A program made the position numbers and the translations under genes. DNA of 64,000 nucleotides. Origin: Granulibacter bethesdensis. GTDB lineage: Bacteria; Pseudomonadota; Alphaproteobacteria; Acetobacterales; Acetobacteraceae. Shown piece by piece: positions 1 through 12,255 of this stretch (the first letter of the stretch is position 1; every line of letters begins with the position of its first letter). The stretch lies in contig NZ_CP018192.1 of the NCBI RefSeq assembly GCF_001889525.1, forward strand, positions 2,508,501 to 2,572,500. The letters are read 5' to 3'. The notes beneath the pieces were generated by a model that was not told the origin of the DNA, made no database searches, and worked only from the letters and a program-made list of their open reading frames with translations.

Positions 1-695
1 CGACCCTGATTGGTCAGCACCTTCTCCACCGGGGTACGCAAGCGGATTTTACCTCCGCCTGCCTCTATGGCTTGCACAAGCCTTGCAATCAGCGTCTCGG
101 AGCCGCCCTCAATATAGCCAAGCTCCTCCTGCATGATGGAACGTCTTGAGGTGCCAACACGCTTGATCCGTGTCCATATCCATGCCGCTGAAACAGGATC
201 GGCGTATTGATAGAATTTCAGATCAAACAGGGAGCGCCACAGTTTTTGATAAACACTCTGCCCGCACCATGTCTCAATCCATTTCCTGGCAGAAATATTT
301 TCCAGTGACCCTGCCGCTTTCCGCTTGGTAGCGAAAAACATCATCAGGCCATAACGAAATTTTTCAATCAGCGTGAGGCCGGGAAATTTAAGCAGAGCGA
401 CAGGGGTACCCCATTCGCTCAGTTTTCCCTCAAAAAAATAGCCCATGCTGGTTTGCATCCACCGCATTTTATCGCCGATACCCAGCTCCTGCATCAGATC
501 GAAAGTCGGCTGATCGGATTTGCAGACAAAATGATAGTAGCGTTCCAGAGAAAGGCCGCCGAAATCGAAATGTGCCGCCATACCGCCTGGAACGGCATCT
601 GCCTCATAAACGGTGACATCATGACCGGCTTTCACCGCATGATAGGCAGCCGCCAATCCCATGGCACCTGCGCCAACAACCGCAACACGTGCCAT
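1..695 (-). CDS. FAD/NAD(P)-binding oxidoreductase, 3' end outside window
   Basis: The first 231 codons are visible and the frame runs off the left edge, so the C-terminus is missing. The protein opens with a Rossmann dinucleotide fold: a VAVVGAGAMG glycine motif at residues 4-13, then an acidic strand end (VYEAD) and a GG pair, as in amine oxidase, protoporphyrinogen oxidase and UDP-galactopyranose mutase-like flavoproteins. It therefore probably binds FAD; the substrate is unknown. The ATG lies 3 bases after the epimerase stop, so it is the last visible gene of the minus-strand cluster that starts with the HAD-UbiA gene. By context it may process a lipid-linked or nucleotide sugar, which is inference. 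A carotenoid/squalene-type desaturase relative is an alternative. Confidence 0.8.
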   Translation of the reverse strand, partial: MARVAVVGAGAMGLAAAYHAVKAGHDVTVYEADAVPGGMAAHFDFGGLSLERYYHFVCKSDQPTFDLMQELGIGDKMRWMQTSMGYFFEGKLSEWGTPVALLKFPGLTLIEKFRYGLMMFFATKRKAAGSLENISARKWIETWCGQSVYQKLWRSLFDLKFYQYADPVSAAWIWTRIKRVGTSRRSIMQEELGYIEGGSETLIARLVQAIEAGGGKIRLRTPVEKVLTNQG

Positions 696-698
696 CTC

Positions 699-1640
699 TC
701 AGAACTCCAGAGCAATCTGCGCATAGGTCGGGTCACGGAAAGTCACTTCCAGCGCCTTGCTCAACGGCGTGGACTGGACACCGAAAATACCGGGCCAGTC
801 GATGACTTCAAAAATATCCGGCGTCACCAGAGCCTTCAACTGACTGGCGGTAAAAGGTGGATTGCTGTTCACCAGCGCATAGATCTTAAGCAACAGCCAG
901 AACAGACCATAAGGAATGGTCACAATCCGCGCCTTTGCACCTGTGGCGGTCTTAACGGCCCGCATCAGGTCGATATAGTCGATACGCTCCAAACCGGTGA
1001 TGTTGAAGGCAGAGCCGTGATGCGGTTTTTTAAGACAGGCACTGATGATATCACAGAAATCACCGACAAATAGCGGCTGACGCAGGTAGCGCCCATTCCC
1101 CGGAATCGGGAAAACCGGCACTTTTTTCATGAAACGGGCCAGCCAGCCCAGATGCTTCCGGTCGAACCAGCCAAACATCAAGGTCGGGCGCAAAATGGTG
1201 ACGGGCAGGCCACTTTCAACGACCAGCTTTTCCTGCGCTTTTTTCGATTCCGTGTAAAAATCCCGCGCCGCAGAATTCACGACTGACGAAGAAATATGCA
1301 CGACATTGCCGATACCCGCTTTTCTGGCAGCAGCAATGACCTTCTCTGTCGCCGTGATATTATTGGCGATAAAAGGCTCCTCCGTCAGGGCACCGATTTG
1401 CGCGTGGTTCAGCACCAGCGCATCCGCACCTGCAAAAGCATCCTGCCATGGGCCATCTTTTGAAAGATCAGCCTCAATGACCTCGATCCCGGGATGGAGC
1501 TTACGCAACAACGCGGTGTTGGACGGATGCTTGTCGATCGCAATGATCCGGCCAGCCTGGCGGTCCACCAGACGCTGAATCAGATTTTGCCCCACCAGAC
1601 CAGCAGCGCCGGTGACGATAATCGTCCGTGTCGTATTCAA
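699..1640 (-). CDS. NAD-dependent epimerase/dehydratase (extended SDR)
   Basis: This 313-residue protein has the N-terminal NAD-binding motif TGAAGLVGQN (residues 11-20), an acidic residue ending the second strand (AIDKH), and YTESK around residue 130 as the Y-x3-K catalytic pair, which marks an extended short-chain dehydrogenase. Members act on nucleotide sugars or related substrates; this one cannot be assigned. The start is TTG, chosen because AAAGGGA lies just upstream at the right distance and the Rossmann strand begins at once. It sits 11 bases after the DprE2-like gene and 3 bases before the FAD oxidoreductase, so it is probably co-transcribed and part of the same envelope-sugar pathway (inference). 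Confidence 0.85.
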   Translation of the reverse strand: MNTTRTIIVTGAAGLVGQNLIQRLVDRQAGRIIAIDKHPSNTALLRKLHPGIEVIEADLSKDGPWQDAFAGADALVLNHAQIGALTEEPFIANNITATEKVIAAARKAGIGNVVHISSSVVNSAARDFYTESKKAQEKLVVESGLPVTILRPTLMFGWFDRKHLGWLARFMKKVPVFPIPGNGRYLRQPLFVGDFCDIISACLKKPHHGSAFNITGLERIDYIDLMRAVKTATGAKARIVTIPYGLFWLLLKIYALVNSNPPFTASQLKALVTPDIFEVIDWPGIFGVQSTPLSKALEVTFRDPTYAQIALEF

Positions 1641-1651
1641 GTGTCGTCCCT

Positions 1652-2395
1652 TTACAGGCGGGTCTTGTGGAAAATACGTGCGGGCACTGAACGGATAACC
1701 AACATGATCAAACGCCAGAATCCCGGTGCATAAACAATGGTTCTGCCGTTTTCTGCAGCGGCCACAATGATCTTTCCAAGCTGCTCTGCGCTGGCCCAGA
1801 GCGGTCCTTTGGTAAATCCTTCCGTCATTGGTGTATCGACAAAACCCGGTTTGATGAGAACAGCACGGGCACCGCTGCGGGCAAGCCGATGAGCAATACC
1901 CTGCACCAGTACACCAAGTCCTGCTTTTGCAGCACCATAGACATAGTTCGACTGCCGACCCCGATCCCCCGCCACAGAGCCGATCACGACCAGACTGCCG
2001 AATGTCTGTTTCTCAAGCAGATTGGCTGCGGCCTGACACCACAAAGCAGCGCTGACGAAATTCACCTGCAACAGATCGGCCAAAGCATTCGGGTTCTGCT
2101 CCAGCATTGTCTGATCGCCGAGCACTCCATAAGCGAGCAGCACGATATCCAACCCACCAAACCGGGCTGCAATGTCATTGAGCGCGGTGACGGAGTCCGC
2201 CTTTGCGCAGTCGCAGGGAACCGTCACGATCTCGGAGGCTCCCCGCGTGGCCAGATCATCGGCAATCACGGCGAGCCGCCCTGGATCACGCGCAAGCAGC
2301 GCAAGGCGGGCACCTTGCGCCGCCCAGAGACGCGCCGCCTCCTGTGCCATGGCAGAGGTTGCACCCAGAATCAGGATCCGTTCAGGCGCTCTCAT
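1652..2395 (-). CDS. DprE2-like SDR: decaprenylphosphoryl-2-keto-ribose reductase type
   Basis: This 247-residue short-chain dehydrogenase has a GATSAMA cofactor motif near residue 11, a catalytic Ser in VVIGSVAGDRG (about residue 140) and YVYGAAKAG as the Y-x3-K pair (about residue 153). In mycobacteria DprE2 reduces the 2-keto intermediate made by DprE1, giving polyprenylphosphoryl-arabinose. The C-terminal pattern (V-R-x-x-P-x-x-I-F-x-K) resembles DprE2 as I remember it. The strongest argument is context: its ATG overlaps the stop of the DprE1-like gene by four bases (ATGA), so the two should be translationally coupled. A generic SDR with another substrate remains possible, but adjacency to DprE1 makes that less likely. 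Confidence 0.85.
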   Translation of the reverse strand: MRAPERILILGATSAMAQEAARLWAAQGARLALLARDPGRLAVIADDLATRGASEIVTVPCDCAKADSVTALNDIAARFGGLDIVLLAYGVLGDQTMLEQNPNALADLLQVNFVSAALWCQAAANLLEKQTFGSLVVIGSVAGDRGRQSNYVYGAAKAGLGVLVQGIAHRLARSGARAVLIKPGFVDTPMTEGFTKGPLWASAEQLGKIIVAAAENGRTIVYAPGFWRLIMLVIRSVPARIFHKTRL

Positions 2396-3732
2396 TGCAA
2401 CACACGCTGCCAGAAACTGGAGGTCATGACCGGATCCTTATGAGGAAGAAATTGATCAAGCCGGGGAAAAGACTGTCTGAACATGCCGGCACTCATCCGC
2501 CCGTCTTTCGCGGGGTAAAGCGCCCCGCCCGCTTCCCGGACGATCTCATCCAGCCGCAGCAGCGTGGCCAAAGTCCCGGCTCCCCGGAAGGGAAAATCCA
2601 GCGCCAGAGTAGCACCGGGCCGGGGAAACGATAACAGCCCCGGTGAGGTTTTCGCACCGAACGTCTTGAGCACGGCCAGAAAGGAGGTCTCCCCGCTGCG
2701 TGCGATGGCATCCAGCAATACGGGCATGGCGGAACGCGCGGTCTCGAAGGGAAGGACGCATTGATATTGCAGCATGCCGCGCGCGCCATACAACCGGTTC
2801 CAGCTGCGGATGGCATCAAGCGGATAAAAATGCTGGCTGTAATGCTGGACCTGTTTTCCGGCTTTACGCTGATGGGCGCGGTAGTACAATTCGTTGAAGG
2901 CACGCACGCTGAAGCGATTCAGGGCGAAGCCGGGTGCATCGAGCGGAATGGATTTCCAGCTGCGATCATCATGCGGGTCAAGACGCCCATCCCGCCGCCA
3001 GTTGGCGCGCGTAAAGATGCCACGGCCTGCATGCGGGCCACGTGCCAGGCAGTCAATCCAGGCAACAGTGTGTTCGAAACCGCCTGCACTCTCGGCCGCC
3101 AGATCCCAGAAAGCATCGATATTCTCGTAAGGGATGGTTTCTACATCCAGCCATGCGCTGGCAATCGGAGAGAGCTGCAACTCCACCCATTCGATCACCC
3201 CTGTCAGCCCAAGCCCCCCGAGCGTCGCAGCAAACAGGCCATTGTCACTTCGGGCCTCAAGCACCCGCCGCTCTCCGTTACCTCGCAGCAGGCCGAGCGC
3301 ACGCACGGAGCAACCGAAAGAGCCGGCAGAATGGTGATTTTTGCCATGCACATCATTGGCAACCGCGCCACCAAGCGTCACGAACCGCGTACCGGGGCTG
3401 GTCGCGGTAAACCAGCCCTTCGGTACGGTAAAGCGCAGCAGATCGGACAGGCTCATGCCGGCATCAGCCCGCACGATCCCGTTTTGTGCATCGAAATGGA
3501 TAAAGCGGTTCAGCCCGGTCATCTCGATCAGGCGACCACCCGCATTCAACGGCGTATCACCGTAGGAACGGCGCAAACCAACCGCCAACAGACTGGCACT
3601 CTCACTCTCCGGCCCTGTCAGGCTGGACAACGCGGCAGGAAAGGCCGGTCGGGCGACATAATGCGGCTCACGGACCACGCGCCCCCAGGAGCAGATATCC
3701 GTCCGAAGCGTGAAAGGAGAAGCAGCCATCAT
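2392..3732 (-). CDS. DprE1-like FAD oxidase (decaprenylphosphoryl-ribose 2'-oxidase type)
   Basis: This protein of about 446 residues is a VAO-type FAD-dependent oxidase. Near its N-terminus it has GLRRSYGD and L-N-x-G-G; further on PGTRFVTLGGAVANDVHGKN and the block HGKNHHSAGSFG, which also occurs in mycobacterial DprE1. A conserved Lys lies in YPAKDGR near the C-terminus. DprE1 oxidises the ribose 2'-OH of polyprenylphosphoryl-ribose. At the position of the mycobacterial Cys387 I read alanine (ALDFP; codon at 2602-2604). Two ATGs (3732, 3729) and a TTG (3735) are in frame; 3732 is chosen because it forms a TGATG overlap with the upstream HAD-UbiA stop. The DprE2-like gene follows with an ATGA overlap. 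Family assignment is firm; the exact lipid substrate is inferred. Confidence 0.9.
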   Translation of the reverse strand: MMAASPFTLRTDICSWGRVVREPHYVARPAFPAALSSLTGPESESASLLAVGLRRSYGDTPLNAGGRLIEMTGLNRFIHFDAQNGIVRADAGMSLSDLLRFTVPKGWFTATSPGTRFVTLGGAVANDVHGKNHHSAGSFGCSVRALGLLRGNGERRVLEARSDNGLFAATLGGLGLTGVIEWVELQLSPIASAWLDVETIPYENIDAFWDLAAESAGGFEHTVAWIDCLARGPHAGRGIFTRANWRRDGRLDPHDDRSWKSIPLDAPGFALNRFSVRAFNELYYRAHQRKAGKQVQHYSQHFYPLDAIRSWNRLYGARGMLQYQCVLPFETARSAMPVLLDAIARSGETSFLAVLKTFGAKTSPGLLSFPRPGATLALDFPFRGAGTLATLLRLDEIVREAGGALYPAKDGRMSAGMFRQSFPRLDQFLPHKDPVMTSSFWQRVLQ

Positions 3733-5186
3733 CAAACCGGCATAATGGCAGCCAGAAACAAGGCTATTGCTGTCGCCCCATAGAATAGCGACACACGATC
3801 TTTCAGAGCAAAGGCAACAGGATCATCCTGCAGTTCCTGACGCTGGCATAACAGCCAGATGCGGCCCAGGAACAGAAAAATGATCATGGGAAAGCCCCAT
3901 AACAGGGCGGGGTGACGATAAAAACTCGCCTGAAACGCTTCGTCGATCAGATACAGTACCATGATGGCGACCGCCCCCATGCTGGAAGCCACCCCGAGCG
4001 CCAGAATCAGTGGCGCATCCGCAGCCAGGTAGCCACGTCCGAGCACTTTCTGGTGACCATGCTGCACCATGCGCATCACCTCGGTATGTCGCTTCACCAG
4101 CGACAGGGAGAGGAAAATAAACATGGAAAACACCAGCAGCCATGGTGCCAACGCAACACCGGTCACCACCTGCCCGAGCACAAGCCTCATTGTAAACATG
4201 CCCGCCAGCAACAGCACATCAACGATCGGCTCGCGCTTGAACTTATAGGAATAGGCGAGGCTCATGACCAGATAGATGGCAAGAGTGACGATGGCACCGA
4301 CACCATCGGCAGCGGCAAACAGCAGAGCAGCCAATCCGCAGACCATCAACAGAAACAGGCCGTCATCCAGTGGCAATTGCCCACTGGCAAGCGGGCGCTT
4401 TTTCTTCGACCAGTGGCGACGGTCCTCAGCCAGATCCCACATGTCATTGGCGATATAGGTGCCCGAAGCGAGCAGCCCCATCGCCATGAAGGCCAGTATG
4501 GCCGCCCCCCAGGCATGGGCCGAAAAAATTTGTCCCCCCAGCACCAGCGGCACAAAAACCAGAGCGTTTTTGGCCCATTGATGAAGCCGCGCCGCCCGGC
4601 GGAGAACATTGGCGCGTTGGCCGGAAGGGCGGATATGGGCCGCCACCGGGGTATCAGGCTGAACCTTGCTTCTCAGGCGCTTGCCGCGTTCAACGATGAC
4701 AGCAGCACGGGCAGAGCGCCACACATGAAGATCTGCTTCGGAATCACCCGCATAGATGAAGCCATCCGGGTAGCGGCTTGTCAGGGCGGCAGCCTTGGCC
4801 GCTCCCTTCAGGTTACCCCGATCATCAGAGGACAGAACCTCTGAAATAAAAGGAAACCGGGCGCTTATTTTCTCCGCAATAGCCCGATTGGCAGCCGTCG
4901 CCAGGACGATTTTACGCCCTTTTGCTGCCTCCCGCTCCGCCAGCGCAATGATACCGGGGGTCGCAGGAAGGGCATCGATATCCTCCTGGGTCAGTACCTC
5001 GGCAAAGCGCTGCTTGAACTGCGCACGACCGGCCATCACCCAGAGCGGAAGCCTGACAAGATCAGAAGGAGTATTTTTCAGATGTTGCAGCAGAGATTCA
5101 TGCAGTGAATCAGTGGCAATCAGTGTTCCGTCAAGATCAAGTACAAGAGGAATTGAAATATCCTGATCCAAGTAAGCCTCTTGCAT
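3732..5186 (-). CDS. HAD phosphatase-UbiA prenyltransferase fusion, phosphoribosyl-polyprenyl-phosphate synthase type
   Basis: The 484-residue product joins two domains. Residues about 12-190 are a HAD hydrolase: LDLDGTL nucleophile motif, TAANR as motif II, and YAGDSEADL as the acidic motif IV. From about 200 onward it is a multi-helix UbiA membrane enzyme with the aspartate motif NDMWDLAEDRRHW and KKRPLASGQLP after it. Related proteins (Rv3806c, rhizobial NoeC) transfer phosphoribose from PRPP to a polyprenyl phosphate. The HAD part could remove the 5'-phosphate (inference). The ATG at 5186 is preferred over a TTG at 5219; neither has a good ribosome site. It is the first gene of the cluster ending at the left edge and overlaps the DprE1-like start (TGATG). 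UbiA enzymes for quinones are an alternative, disfavoured by context. Confidence 0.88.
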   Translation of the reverse strand: MQEAYLDQDISIPLVLDLDGTLIATDSLHESLLQHLKNTPSDLVRLPLWVMAGRAQFKQRFAEVLTQEDIDALPATPGIIALAEREAAKGRKIVLATAANRAIAEKISARFPFISEVLSSDDRGNLKGAAKAAALTSRYPDGFIYAGDSEADLHVWRSARAAVIVERGKRLRSKVQPDTPVAAHIRPSGQRANVLRRAARLHQWAKNALVFVPLVLGGQIFSAHAWGAAILAFMAMGLLASGTYIANDMWDLAEDRRHWSKKKRPLASGQLPLDDGLFLLMVCGLAALLFAAADGVGAIVTLAIYLVMSLAYSYKFKREPIVDVLLLAGMFTMRLVLGQVVTGVALAPWLLVFSMFIFLSLSLVKRHTEVMRMVQHGHQKVLGRGYLAADAPLILALGVASSMGAVAIMVLYLIDEAFQASFYRHPALLWGFPMIIFLFLGRIWLLCQRQELQDDPVAFALKDRVSLFYGATAIALFLAAIMPV

Positions 5187-10838: not shown

Positions 10839-10861
10839 GGCGAGAAAAATGATGTCGAAAG

Positions 10862-10878
10862 TGGGAAATTATTTCCCA
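10862..10878. promoter_or_regulatory. palindrome 2, overlapping the likely carA -35
   Basis: TGGGAAAT (10862-10869) and ATTTCCCA (10871-10878) form perfect 8-base arms around one central T. The segment TTCCCA at 10873-10878 is a fair -35 (4 of 6 matches to TTGACA). It stands 17 bases before TATATT (10896-10901), a good -10. A dimeric regulator bound here would block or alter RNA polymerase binding at carA. The HTH-like domain of CarA itself is a candidate ligand (inference). Confidence 0.5.
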
Positions 10879-10908
10879 AGCGCATCTGGGTGCCCTATAT
10901 TAGCACGC
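10873..10908 (+). promoter_or_regulatory. putative carA promoter, possibly leaderless transcript
   Basis: TTCCCA (10873-10878) and TATATT (10896-10901), 17 bases apart, make a sigma-70 type promoter. Initiation 7-8 bases after the -10 would fall at about 10908-10909, the A of the carA ATG at 10909. That start has no Shine-Dalgarno, which fits a leaderless mRNA. If the alternative start at 10849 is used, this element would be internal and irrelevant. Confidence 0.4.
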
Positions 10909-12255
10909 ATGACAACAAGTGTAGACGATATCATCGAACGCCTGGGCGGCGCGGACGGCGCTGCACGCAGGCTTGGCGTGGGCACGGAAGCCCTTCGCAA
11001 ATGGCGTCAGTCCCGCTCGATCCCCGCGCGCCACTGGCCCGCACTGATCGAGTCGCTGGGTATTACGCTGGAGGATATTCCCGGGGCGCCGGCCCGCACC
11101 GCGCTGACAGAAGCCCCGCCGGAAGGGGCCACCGCCGTTTTGGCGCTCAGCGATGGCACACTGTTCTGGGGACGCGGCTTCGGTGCGCCGACACAGGGGA
11201 CACAGCCTGCTGAAATCTGCTTCAGCACCGGGCTGACCGGATATCAGGAAACCCTGACCGACCCGTCTTTCGCCGGGCAGATCATCACCTTCACCTTTCC
11301 GCATATCGGCAATGTCGGCGCCAACAAGGACGATATGGAGGCCGCCACCATCGCCGCACGCGGGCTGGTGGTGAAGGAAGACATCACCGCCGCCTCCAAC
11401 TGGCGGGCGGAAACCAGCCTCGACGCATGGCTTCAGCATCGTGGCATCACCGGAATTTCAGGCGTGGATACGCGCGCGCTGACATTGCGCATCCGCGATC
11501 TTGGCGCACCGCATGGTATCATCTCCTTTCCTGCGGACGGGCATTTCGACATTGCGGCTCTGGTAGAAGCCGCCGCCGCATGGCCCGGACTGGAAGGGCT
11601 GGATCTGGCGAAGGATGTCTCCTGTACCCAGAGCTATGAATGGTCCGAAGGCACCTGGTCCTGGCCTGGAGCCTTCTCCGCACCCCCGCCGAAGCATCAT
11701 GTCGTCGCGGTGGATTACGGGGCAAAGCGCAACATCCTGCGCAGCCTTGCAAATGCCGGATGCCGGGTGACGGTCGTGCCGGCCACCACCTCCGCCGAGG
11801 ATATCCTGCGACACAATCCGGATGGCGTGTTCCTGTCCAACGGCCCCGGCGATCCGGCCGCAACAGCCACCTATGCCGTGCCTGCCATTCGCGGCGTGCT
11901 GGAGGCTGGCAAGCCGGTTTTCGGCATCTGTCTTGGGCACCAGCTGCTGTCTCTGGCGCTGGGGGCAAAAACCTACAAGCTCGATCTGGGGCATCGCGGG
12001 GCCAACCAGCCGGTCAAGGAACTGGCCACCGGTCGCGTGGAGATCACCAGCCAGAATCATGGTTTCGCCGTGGATGCATCCTCCCTGCCTGCCGGGGTGG
12101 AGGTCACACATGTCAGCCTGTTCGACGGCTCGAACGAGGGTATTGCCGCGCCGTCGAAGCGTTGTTTCAGCGTGCAGTATCATCCGGAAGCCAGTCCCGG
12201 CCCCAGTGACAGCCATCATCTGTTCCATCGTTTCGTGGACATGCTGGGGTCGTAA
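10909..12255 (+). CDS. carA: carbamoyl-phosphate synthase small subunit with N-terminal HTH-like domain
   Basis: The product releases ammonia from glutamine for carbamoyl phosphate synthesis with CarB, feeding arginine and pyrimidines. From about residue 75 it is an ordinary CarA: LSDGTLFWGRGFGA starts the N-terminal domain and GICLGHQLLSLALGA holds the class I glutaminase Cys. The C-terminal SVQYHPEASPGP supplies the catalytic His and Glu. Unusual is a leading segment of about 60 residues (DDIIERLGGADGAARRLGV, then TEALRKWRQSRSIPARHW), which looks like a small Cro/YdaS-type helix-turn-helix. ATG 10909 begins this domain directly and follows a -10-like TATATT. An in-frame ATG at 10849 has GGGAGG at good spacing and would add 20 residues, so the start is uncertain. 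carB follows after 93 bases. Confidence 0.93.
   Translation: MTTSVDDIIERLGGADGAARRLGVGTEALRKWRQSRSIPARHWPALIESLGITLEDIPGAPARTALTEAPPEGATAVLALSDGTLFWGRGFGAPTQGTQPAEICFSTGLTGYQETLTDPSFAGQIITFTFPHIGNVGANKDDMEAATIAARGLVVKEDITAASNWRAETSLDAWLQHRGITGISGVDTRALTLRIRDLGAPHGIISFPADGHFDIAALVEAAAAWPGLEGLDLAKDVSCTQSYEWSEGTWSWPGAFSAPPPKHHVVAVDYGAKRNILRSLANAGCRVTVVPATTSAEDILRHNPDGVFLSNGPGDPAATATYAVPAIRGVLEAGKPVFGICLGHQLLSLALGAKTYKLDLGHRGANQPVKELATGRVEITSQNHGFAVDASSLPAGVEVTHVSLFDGSNEGIAAPSKRCFSVQYHPEASPGPSDSHHLFHRFVDMLGS

Follow-up and report, generated by a model that had tools for sequence, protein, structure and literature searches.

A predicted lipid-linked pentose operon of Granulibacter bethesdensis carries an optional three-gene unit of the DprE1 pathway

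We analyzed a 64,000-nucleotide stretch of the Granulibacter bethesdensis genome (contig NZ_CP018192.1, positions 2,508,501 to 2,572,500; hereafter the window), at the left edge of which lies a six-gene operon related to the DprE1 pathway for lipid-linked pentoses, with three last genes that form an optional unit of that pathway. The operon is on the minus strand, starts with an ATG at 5186 and crosses the left edge of the window, and it encodes, in order, a HAD phosphatase–UbiA fusion, a DprE1-like flavin adenine dinucleotide (FAD) oxidase, a DprE2-like short-chain dehydrogenase/reductase (SDR), an extended SDR, an FAD oxidoreductase and a GtrA-type protein (Table 1). Adjacent genes overlap or are separated by at most 11 bases: the UbiA/DprE1 junction reads TGATG, and ATGA marks both the DprE1/DprE2 junction and the overlap of the FAD oxidoreductase and GtrA genes. 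The DprE1-like gene was read from an ATG, with a TTG at 3735 as the alternative start. Since the next gene beyond GtrA, of the RecX type, is convergent on the opposite strand, the operon probably ends after GtrA; the genome as a whole is a single contig of 2.69 Mb. An initial annotation of the window had described the operon as having two further enzymes beside the UbiA, DprE1-like and DprE2-like ones. Both are indeed present, but that description missed that the fifth gene continues to the left, that a sixth gene follows, and that the two enzymes form an optional module with GtrA.

Table 1. Genes of the operon and members of a membrane-protein family found at related loci (window positions unless a locus label is given)
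Feature	Position	Strand	Assignment and matches
HAD phosphatase–UbiA fusion, 484 amino acids	3732..5186	-	predicted polyprenyl-phosphate phosphoribosyltransferase and 5'-phosphatase; PF01040, PF12710, NF006088, 8j8j
DprE1-like FAD oxidase	2392..3732	-	PF01565, NF053785, 4aut
DprE2-like short-chain reductase	1652..2395	-	PF00106, NF053786, YGAAK at 153
Extended SDR, epimerase type (module gene 1)	699..1640	-	PF01370, TGAAGLVG at 10, YTESK at 129
FAD oxidoreductase, N-terminal part (module gene 2), first 695 bases	1..695	-	PF01593, NF005560
FAD oxidoreductase, whole gene, 434 amino acids	L002:17891-19195; portion left of the window L002:17891-18500		
GtrA-type protein, 136 amino acids (module gene 3)	L002:17484-17894, fully outside the window		PF04138
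Members of the membrane family of 578–756 amino acids	L029:3742-5478; L056:16786-18522; 13 further loci		

The first gene product combines an N-terminal HAD domain (E 1.4e-11) with a UbiA domain (E 1.2e-17), exceeds the 351-bit cutoff of NCBIfam NF006088 with 603.7 bits and, among solved structures, matches the decaprenyl-phosphate phosphoribosyltransferase 8j8j (E 1.7e-19). The initial annotation had recognized a UbiA enzyme with an NDxxDxxxD motif, and this motif is borne out as NDMWDLAED from residue 247, but the fused phosphatase domain had gone unseen. With its N-terminal HAD domain and a C-terminal UbiA part that carries NDxxDxxxD and RxxE, the fusion has the sequence features of the Citrobacter ORF15 type. 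In the available text of the Citrobacter study (PMC11127046), ORF15 of Citrobacter youngae, an N-terminal phosphatase fused to UbiA, is the closest published architecture, and its N247, D248, D251, D255, R366 and E369 are identically numbered in the fusion studied here, while the first Asp of the HAD motif is residue 17 here and D18 there. The same text reports that the HAD–UbiA fusion makes polyprenyl-phosphate ribofuranose in vitro.

The DprE1-like protein matches PF01565 (FAD_binding_4) at E 1e-14 and the DprE1 chain 4aut at E 4.5e-78, and, as had been claimed, it carries a motif, HGKNHHSAGSFG at residue 129, and a downstream lysine segment, AKDGRM at residue 408, which aligns with the Lys region of mycobacterial DprE1. 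This lysine has a substrate-side role in DprE1, and the FAD_binding_4 domain, the HGKNHH segment and the substrate-side lysine are all present in the DprE1-like protein. Cys387 of mycobacterial DprE1 we take to be the benzothiazinone-reactive, drug-relevant position; its equivalent here is Ala378, and all 16 of the 16 aligned sequences, the window's included, have alanine. The DprE2-like protein (PF00106, E 2.2e-34) has an SDR fold with YxxxK, and the overlap of its gene with the DprE1-like gene agrees with the initial annotation. The proposal of a lipid-linked pentose pathway holds in that these first three proteins belong to the right families for a polyprenyl-phosphate pentofuranose route.

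Among the remaining proteins, the extended SDR matches PF01370 (E 3.5e-23) and has TGxxGxxG and YxxxK motifs that are conserved among its relatives. The FAD oxidoreductase matches PF01593 (E 4.3e-30) and scores 531.5 bits against NF005560 (cutoff 252), a family named only 'hypothetical protein'. The GtrA protein matches PF04138 (E 6.1e-16), and reaches just 24 bits against a cutoff of 50 for NCBIfam NF037976.

Homologues of DprE1 at E 1e-30 or better occur in 25 of 299 genomes of the order, spread over 13 of its 65 genera and including all three genomes of the genus, and at E 1e-50 in 53 of the 398 genomes of a phylum sample. We compared 108 DprE1 neighborhoods, namely 22 from the order (the 25 matches minus three of the own genus), 6 from plasmids, taken from 64 plasmid records and chosen among annotated matches (four of the six also had the FAD enzyme), and 80 from named genomes, the best 80 of at least 581 matches; because of how the loci were chosen, the sample is biased to proteins resembling the window's. 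The SDR and the FAD enzyme were scored as present when they exceeded 300 bits each to profiles A2 and A3. Scored in this way, the SDR, the FAD enzyme and a window-like GtrA are all found in 33 of the 108 loci, none of them in 74 and GtrA alone in 1, and not a single locus has exactly one of the two enzymes. Weak SDR matches of 43–73 bits at three loci (L034, L036 and L124) were left uncounted, and no weak FAD-enzyme match was listed. Other GtrA types also matched in four module loci and in 10 of the 75 others. The placement of the trio varies, as it may follow DprE2, precede UbiA or be interrupted by a membrane-protein gene.

The module has also come and gone repeatedly. Among the 75 loci without it, 27 extend less than 5 kb to one side of DprE1 and were left unscored, so that the scored rows of the DprE1 tree, in which 37 of 106 inner branches are well supported, comprise 34 with the module (the window added) and 48 clear non-module rows. 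The best tree, weak forks included, requires at least 14 gains or losses of the module, and supported branches alone force 9 changes when truncated loci are scored as lacking it. On supported branches, seven independent pairs contrast a row that has the module with one that does not, and both enzymes change together in each; all seven go the same way because the SDR and FAD-enzyme labels are identical. In the phylum sample the FAD enzyme occurs in 9 of 398 genomes, and all eight in which it is at least 47% identical, the own genome included, have DprE1 (hypergeometric P 6e-8, kinship ignored). In six of the seven other genomes the two genes share a contig, no more than about 5 kb apart, and in the seventh (G443) they are on two contigs. 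Among plasmids, eight records carry the FAD enzyme; seven are the seven best DprE1 records, and the eighth is an Embleya plasmid (31.6%). Because the trio is all-or-none in the loci, has been gained and lost repeatedly, and includes an FAD enzyme that co-occurs with DprE1, the SDR, FAD oxidoreductase and GtrA together are an optional unit of the DprE1 pathway. Literature searches on DprE1, once together with Azorhizobium and arabinose and once together with GtrA and D-arabinofuranose, listed nothing on the trio by title or by the abstracts displayed. The general pathway has already been published; the novelty lies in the optional unit of three genes and in asking which sugar it makes.

One pair of loci shows the contrast at close range. 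L028, whose genome belongs to the same family as the window, and L061, from an uncultured Acetobacter, share 77% identity in UbiA and 82% in DprE1, and each has a downstream membrane protein, but the trio sits between DprE2 and the membrane-protein gene in L028 only. The two membrane proteins are 25% identical; that of L061 matches PF14264 (GtrII), and that of L028 matched nothing at E 0.01. This contrast recalls the single epimerase gene that decides between ribose and xylose in Citrobacter O1/O2 (PMC11127046, in its available text).

Several loci of the sample showed further features. A contig titled Streptomyces sp. AcH 505 (L063) has the full gene set with a DprE1 54% identical to the window's, which nests among alphaproteobacterial tree rows, pointing to gene transfer or assembly contamination. 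On the conjugative Agrobacterium salinitolerans plasmid pDG3-1a (L054), the six genes are next to genes for the synthesis of dTDP-rhamnose and rhamnan and to an IS3 transposase. Some module clusters also contain or adjoin modifying enzymes, namely a methyltransferase gene in Stenotrophomonas (L102:14917-15585) and acyltransferase genes in Pseudomonas (L132:15762-16868) and Xanthomonas (L137:15762-17033), which suggests further decoration.

Going by homology to characterized enzymes, the UbiA domain would convert phosphoribosyl pyrophosphate (PRPP) to undecaprenyl-phosphate ribose-5-phosphate, the fused HAD domain would strip the 5'-phosphate, and the DprE1-like and DprE2-like enzymes would invert C2 by oxidation and reduction, yielding undecaprenyl-phosphate D-arabinofuranose. 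Linkage and chemical reasoning suggest that the extended SDR and the FAD oxidoreductase most likely remodel the lipid-linked sugar a second time. By analogy, GtrA, which we take as a pathway member because linkage places it together with these two enzymes, would flip the lipid-linked sugar to the periplasm, where a class C glycosyltransferase (GT-C) encoded outside the operon would attach it to a glycan outside the cytoplasm, the O-polysaccharide of the lipopolysaccharide being the likeliest acceptor. In the 'three-component' pentofuranosylation of Citrobacter, PRPP gives polyprenyl-phosphate ribofuranose and the lipid-linked donor is flipped to the periplasm (PMC11127046, available text), and the operon is probably the donor half of a pathway of this type. 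Judging from the sequences, we consider it probable that the operon makes and exports a lipid-linked pentose and that the module is part of this pathway. That the module changes the sugar has, in our estimate, about an even chance. The end product is not necessarily arabinose, since the two extra enzymes may change it, and conversion of lipid-linked arabinose to another sugar is the simplest reading of the trio.

Which sugar this would be can be proposed only tentatively: the trio may be a swappable remodelling and export unit that turns polyprenyl-phosphate D-arabinofuranose into D-lyxofuranose or L-xylose, a donor route apparently undescribed in bacteria. One candidate route is inversion of D-arabinofuranose at C3, giving D-lyxofuranose, a sugar that according to the available text of PMC11127046 is in no solved carbohydrate structure. 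The other candidate leads to L-xylose by way of a mutase-like FAD enzyme that forms D-arabinopyranose, which the SDR then inverts at C4; the mutase-like activity is called for because C4 inversion of D-arabinose needs a pyranose ring. UDP-galactopyranose mutase (1i8t, E 1.1e-8) is indeed among the distant PDB relatives of the FAD enzyme, yet it ranks only 28th of the 120 PDB sequences that match the FAD-enzyme profile, which weighs against L-xylose. In the O-polysaccharide of Ralstonia solanacearum, terminal L-xylopyranose is a side chain of a minor branched repeat (PMC10450222, available text), a placement that would fit what post-polymerization modification gives. Against the L-xylose idea, the minor O-antigen of Xylella has D-xylopyranose (PMC5786101, available text), and Ralstonia is absent among the eight plasmid records with the FAD enzyme. 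A literature search on L-xylose and Xanthomonas lipopolysaccharide returned no title on Xanthomonas structures.

A UDP-xylose synthase, as a simple source of lipopolysaccharide xylose, was considered and set aside, as none was named among the PF01370 proteins of the own genome that were compared. There are 13 PF01370 matches at E 1e-8, among which L159 is the operon's own SDR, L161 fell outside the PDB comparison, and L157 and L160 fell outside the classification. An NCBIfam scan of ten of them at E 1e-40 gave names to six (RmlB, Gmd, GalE, HpnA, heptose epimerase and RmlD) but not to the other four; three of these four were compared with PDB chains, with no UDP-xylose synthase among the matches listed. 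The own genome is likely to be without this enzyme.

The module could also act on something other than the sugar. The product would then be plain undecaprenyl-phosphate D-arabinofuranose, with the SDR and FAD enzyme modifying the polyprenyl carrier (by reduction, desaturation or isomerization, for instance) or aiding export by this GtrA type, an explanation that we regard as rather unlikely. It draws on the best PDB match of the FAD-enzyme profile, phytoene desaturase (E 4.6e-18, profile positions 3–399 aligned), on a score of 88.6 bits against the hopanoid enzyme HpnE, and on the joint inheritance of the SDR, FAD enzyme and GtrA. However, the 74 of 108 DprE1 loci without the trio indicate that the core pathway needs no altered carrier, and an epimerase-type SDR with TGxxGxxG and YxxxK fits a sugar better than an isoprenoid. 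We think it improbable that the SDR is instead a C3 epimerase on undecaprenyl-phosphate ribose like Citrobacter ORF13, so that xylofuranose would be made beside arabinofuranose with the FAD enzyme as an accessory: an added SDR epimerase does decide between ribofuranose and xylofuranose in Citrobacter O1/O2 (PMC11127046, available text), and the operon's SDR has both motifs of the ORF13-type epimerase, but the constant pairing of the FAD enzyme with the SDR and the retention of DprE1 and DprE2 would be left unexplained. Least credible is that the SDR and FAD enzyme, which like DprE1 and DprE2 are one flavin enzyme and one SDR, duplicate or assist the C2 inversion toward ordinary arabinofuranose, since the DprE1 and DprE2 homologues stay beside the trio in module loci, so that a duplicate would be no replacement, and the flavin fold families differ (PF01565 versus PF01593).

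Several results weigh against a pentose pathway that includes the module. The DprE1-like protein scores 359.9 bits against NF053785, missing the curated equivalog cutoff of 500, and the DprE2-like protein scores 192.2 bits against NF053786, missing its cutoff of 250; the names are kept as 'DprE1-like' and 'DprE2-like' because both fall under the curated NCBIfam cutoffs. The closest solved relatives of the FAD enzyme are phytoene desaturase, amine oxidases and protoporphyrinogen oxidases, and for this reason it may act on lipid instead of sugar. The ninth genome with an FAD enzyme (G452, 33% identical) has no DprE1 match. Furthermore, no GT-C gene was found in the operon or in the 18.5 kb to its left, which is where the initial annotation, rightly seeing no arabinosyltransferase in view, had suggested looking; the sole open reading frame (ORF) there of at least 350 amino acids with at least six predicted membrane segments resembles a cytochrome oxidase subunit. 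Searches of the own genome with the linked membrane protein of L029, with one of L028 and with profiles of two linked families (A4 and A5) were empty, in each case with no positive-control genome, and a search with PF14264 was likewise empty, although none of the 14 control genomes reached the cutoff of this profile either. Finally, the two own-genome genes that exceed the PF13231 cutoff may act on different substrates, lipid A for example.

Neither PF13231 gene is tied to the operon, and both are no more than unlinked candidates for its GT-C partner: one adjoins an apparent GT2–GtrA fusion and might draw on a donor of its own (L050:9142-10683), and the other is in the vicinity of genes of the secretion type (within L051:8701-10836). 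No match to the linked families came from five further stretches of 20 kb around sugar-nucleotide genes. The apparent GT2–GtrA fusion beside a PMT_2 GT-C gene (L050:9142-11792) looks like an independent pair for the transfer of a lipid-linked sugar, with lipid A as a possible acceptor. Among the module loci, 15 of 33 have a membrane-protein family of 578–756 amino acids, next to GtrA in 10 of the 15. Its members have in common an Asp early in the chain, the motif HNEH, the pattern EN/GFQxQF and a pair RY. A scan of six of them gave no Pfam match (at E 0.01 for five and 0.001 for one), and this family is one of the two linked families for which the own genome yielded no match. We call the family 'GT-C-like' by its predicted membrane segments only, and it is a candidate for a new GT-C family. 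Elsewhere in the window, a CarA-like ORF at 10849-12255 opens with a stretch resembling a helix-turn-helix, which, provided that the start is correct, would be an uncommon extension at the N terminus.

Related systems show how the operon combines known parts. The noeCHOP genes of Azorhizobium are a DprE1/DprE2-type set with the Nod factor as acceptor, Rv3789 of mycobacteria is presumably a GtrA protein, and we take the PSPA7_6245-6251 cluster of Pseudomonas paraeruginosa to have DprE1 and DprE2 homologues. The mycobacterial decaprenylphosphoryl-arabinose pathway (Rv3806c, Rv3807c, DprE1, DprE2 and Rv3789) likewise has a UbiA transferase, DprE1, DprE2 and a small exporter (PMC11127046, available text); here, by contrast, a HAD domain fused to UbiA is the phosphatase, alanine replaces Cys387 of DprE1, the SDR and FAD module is present, and no Emb or Aft enzyme is linked. 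ORF12–ORF15 of C. youngae O1/O2 include a HAD–UbiA with the same domain order and catalytic residues, and there too the pentose can be changed by an additional SDR epimerase; as candidate flippase the operon has GtrA where Citrobacter has MATE, and no GT-C gene, GT136 in Citrobacter, is linked here (PMC11127046, available text). To the Citrobacter set the operon adds the DprE1-like, DprE2-like and FAD enzymes. The pilin D-arabinofuranose cluster PSPA7_6245-6251, with TfpW, is likewise a UbiA-based Gram-negative arabinofuranose route (PMC12369383, available text), although its UbiA, unlike the operon's, is without a fused phosphatase (PMC11127046, available text).

Some Xanthomonas systems have several candidates for the epimerase or the GT-C, and the significance of this multiplicity 'warrants investigation' (PMC11127046, available text). 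All eight of the eight Lysobacterales loci (Xanthomonas and kin) among the 108, both Xanthomonas loci included, carry the trio, which may for that reason be part of the answer. More generally, some lipid-linked pentose pathways outside mycobacteria include a fixed unit of three genes and others do not, and the trio is a marker for choosing which genomes to assay. Should a second pentose be its product, the unit would be a route to a rare O-antigen sugar and a new donor for glycoengineering.

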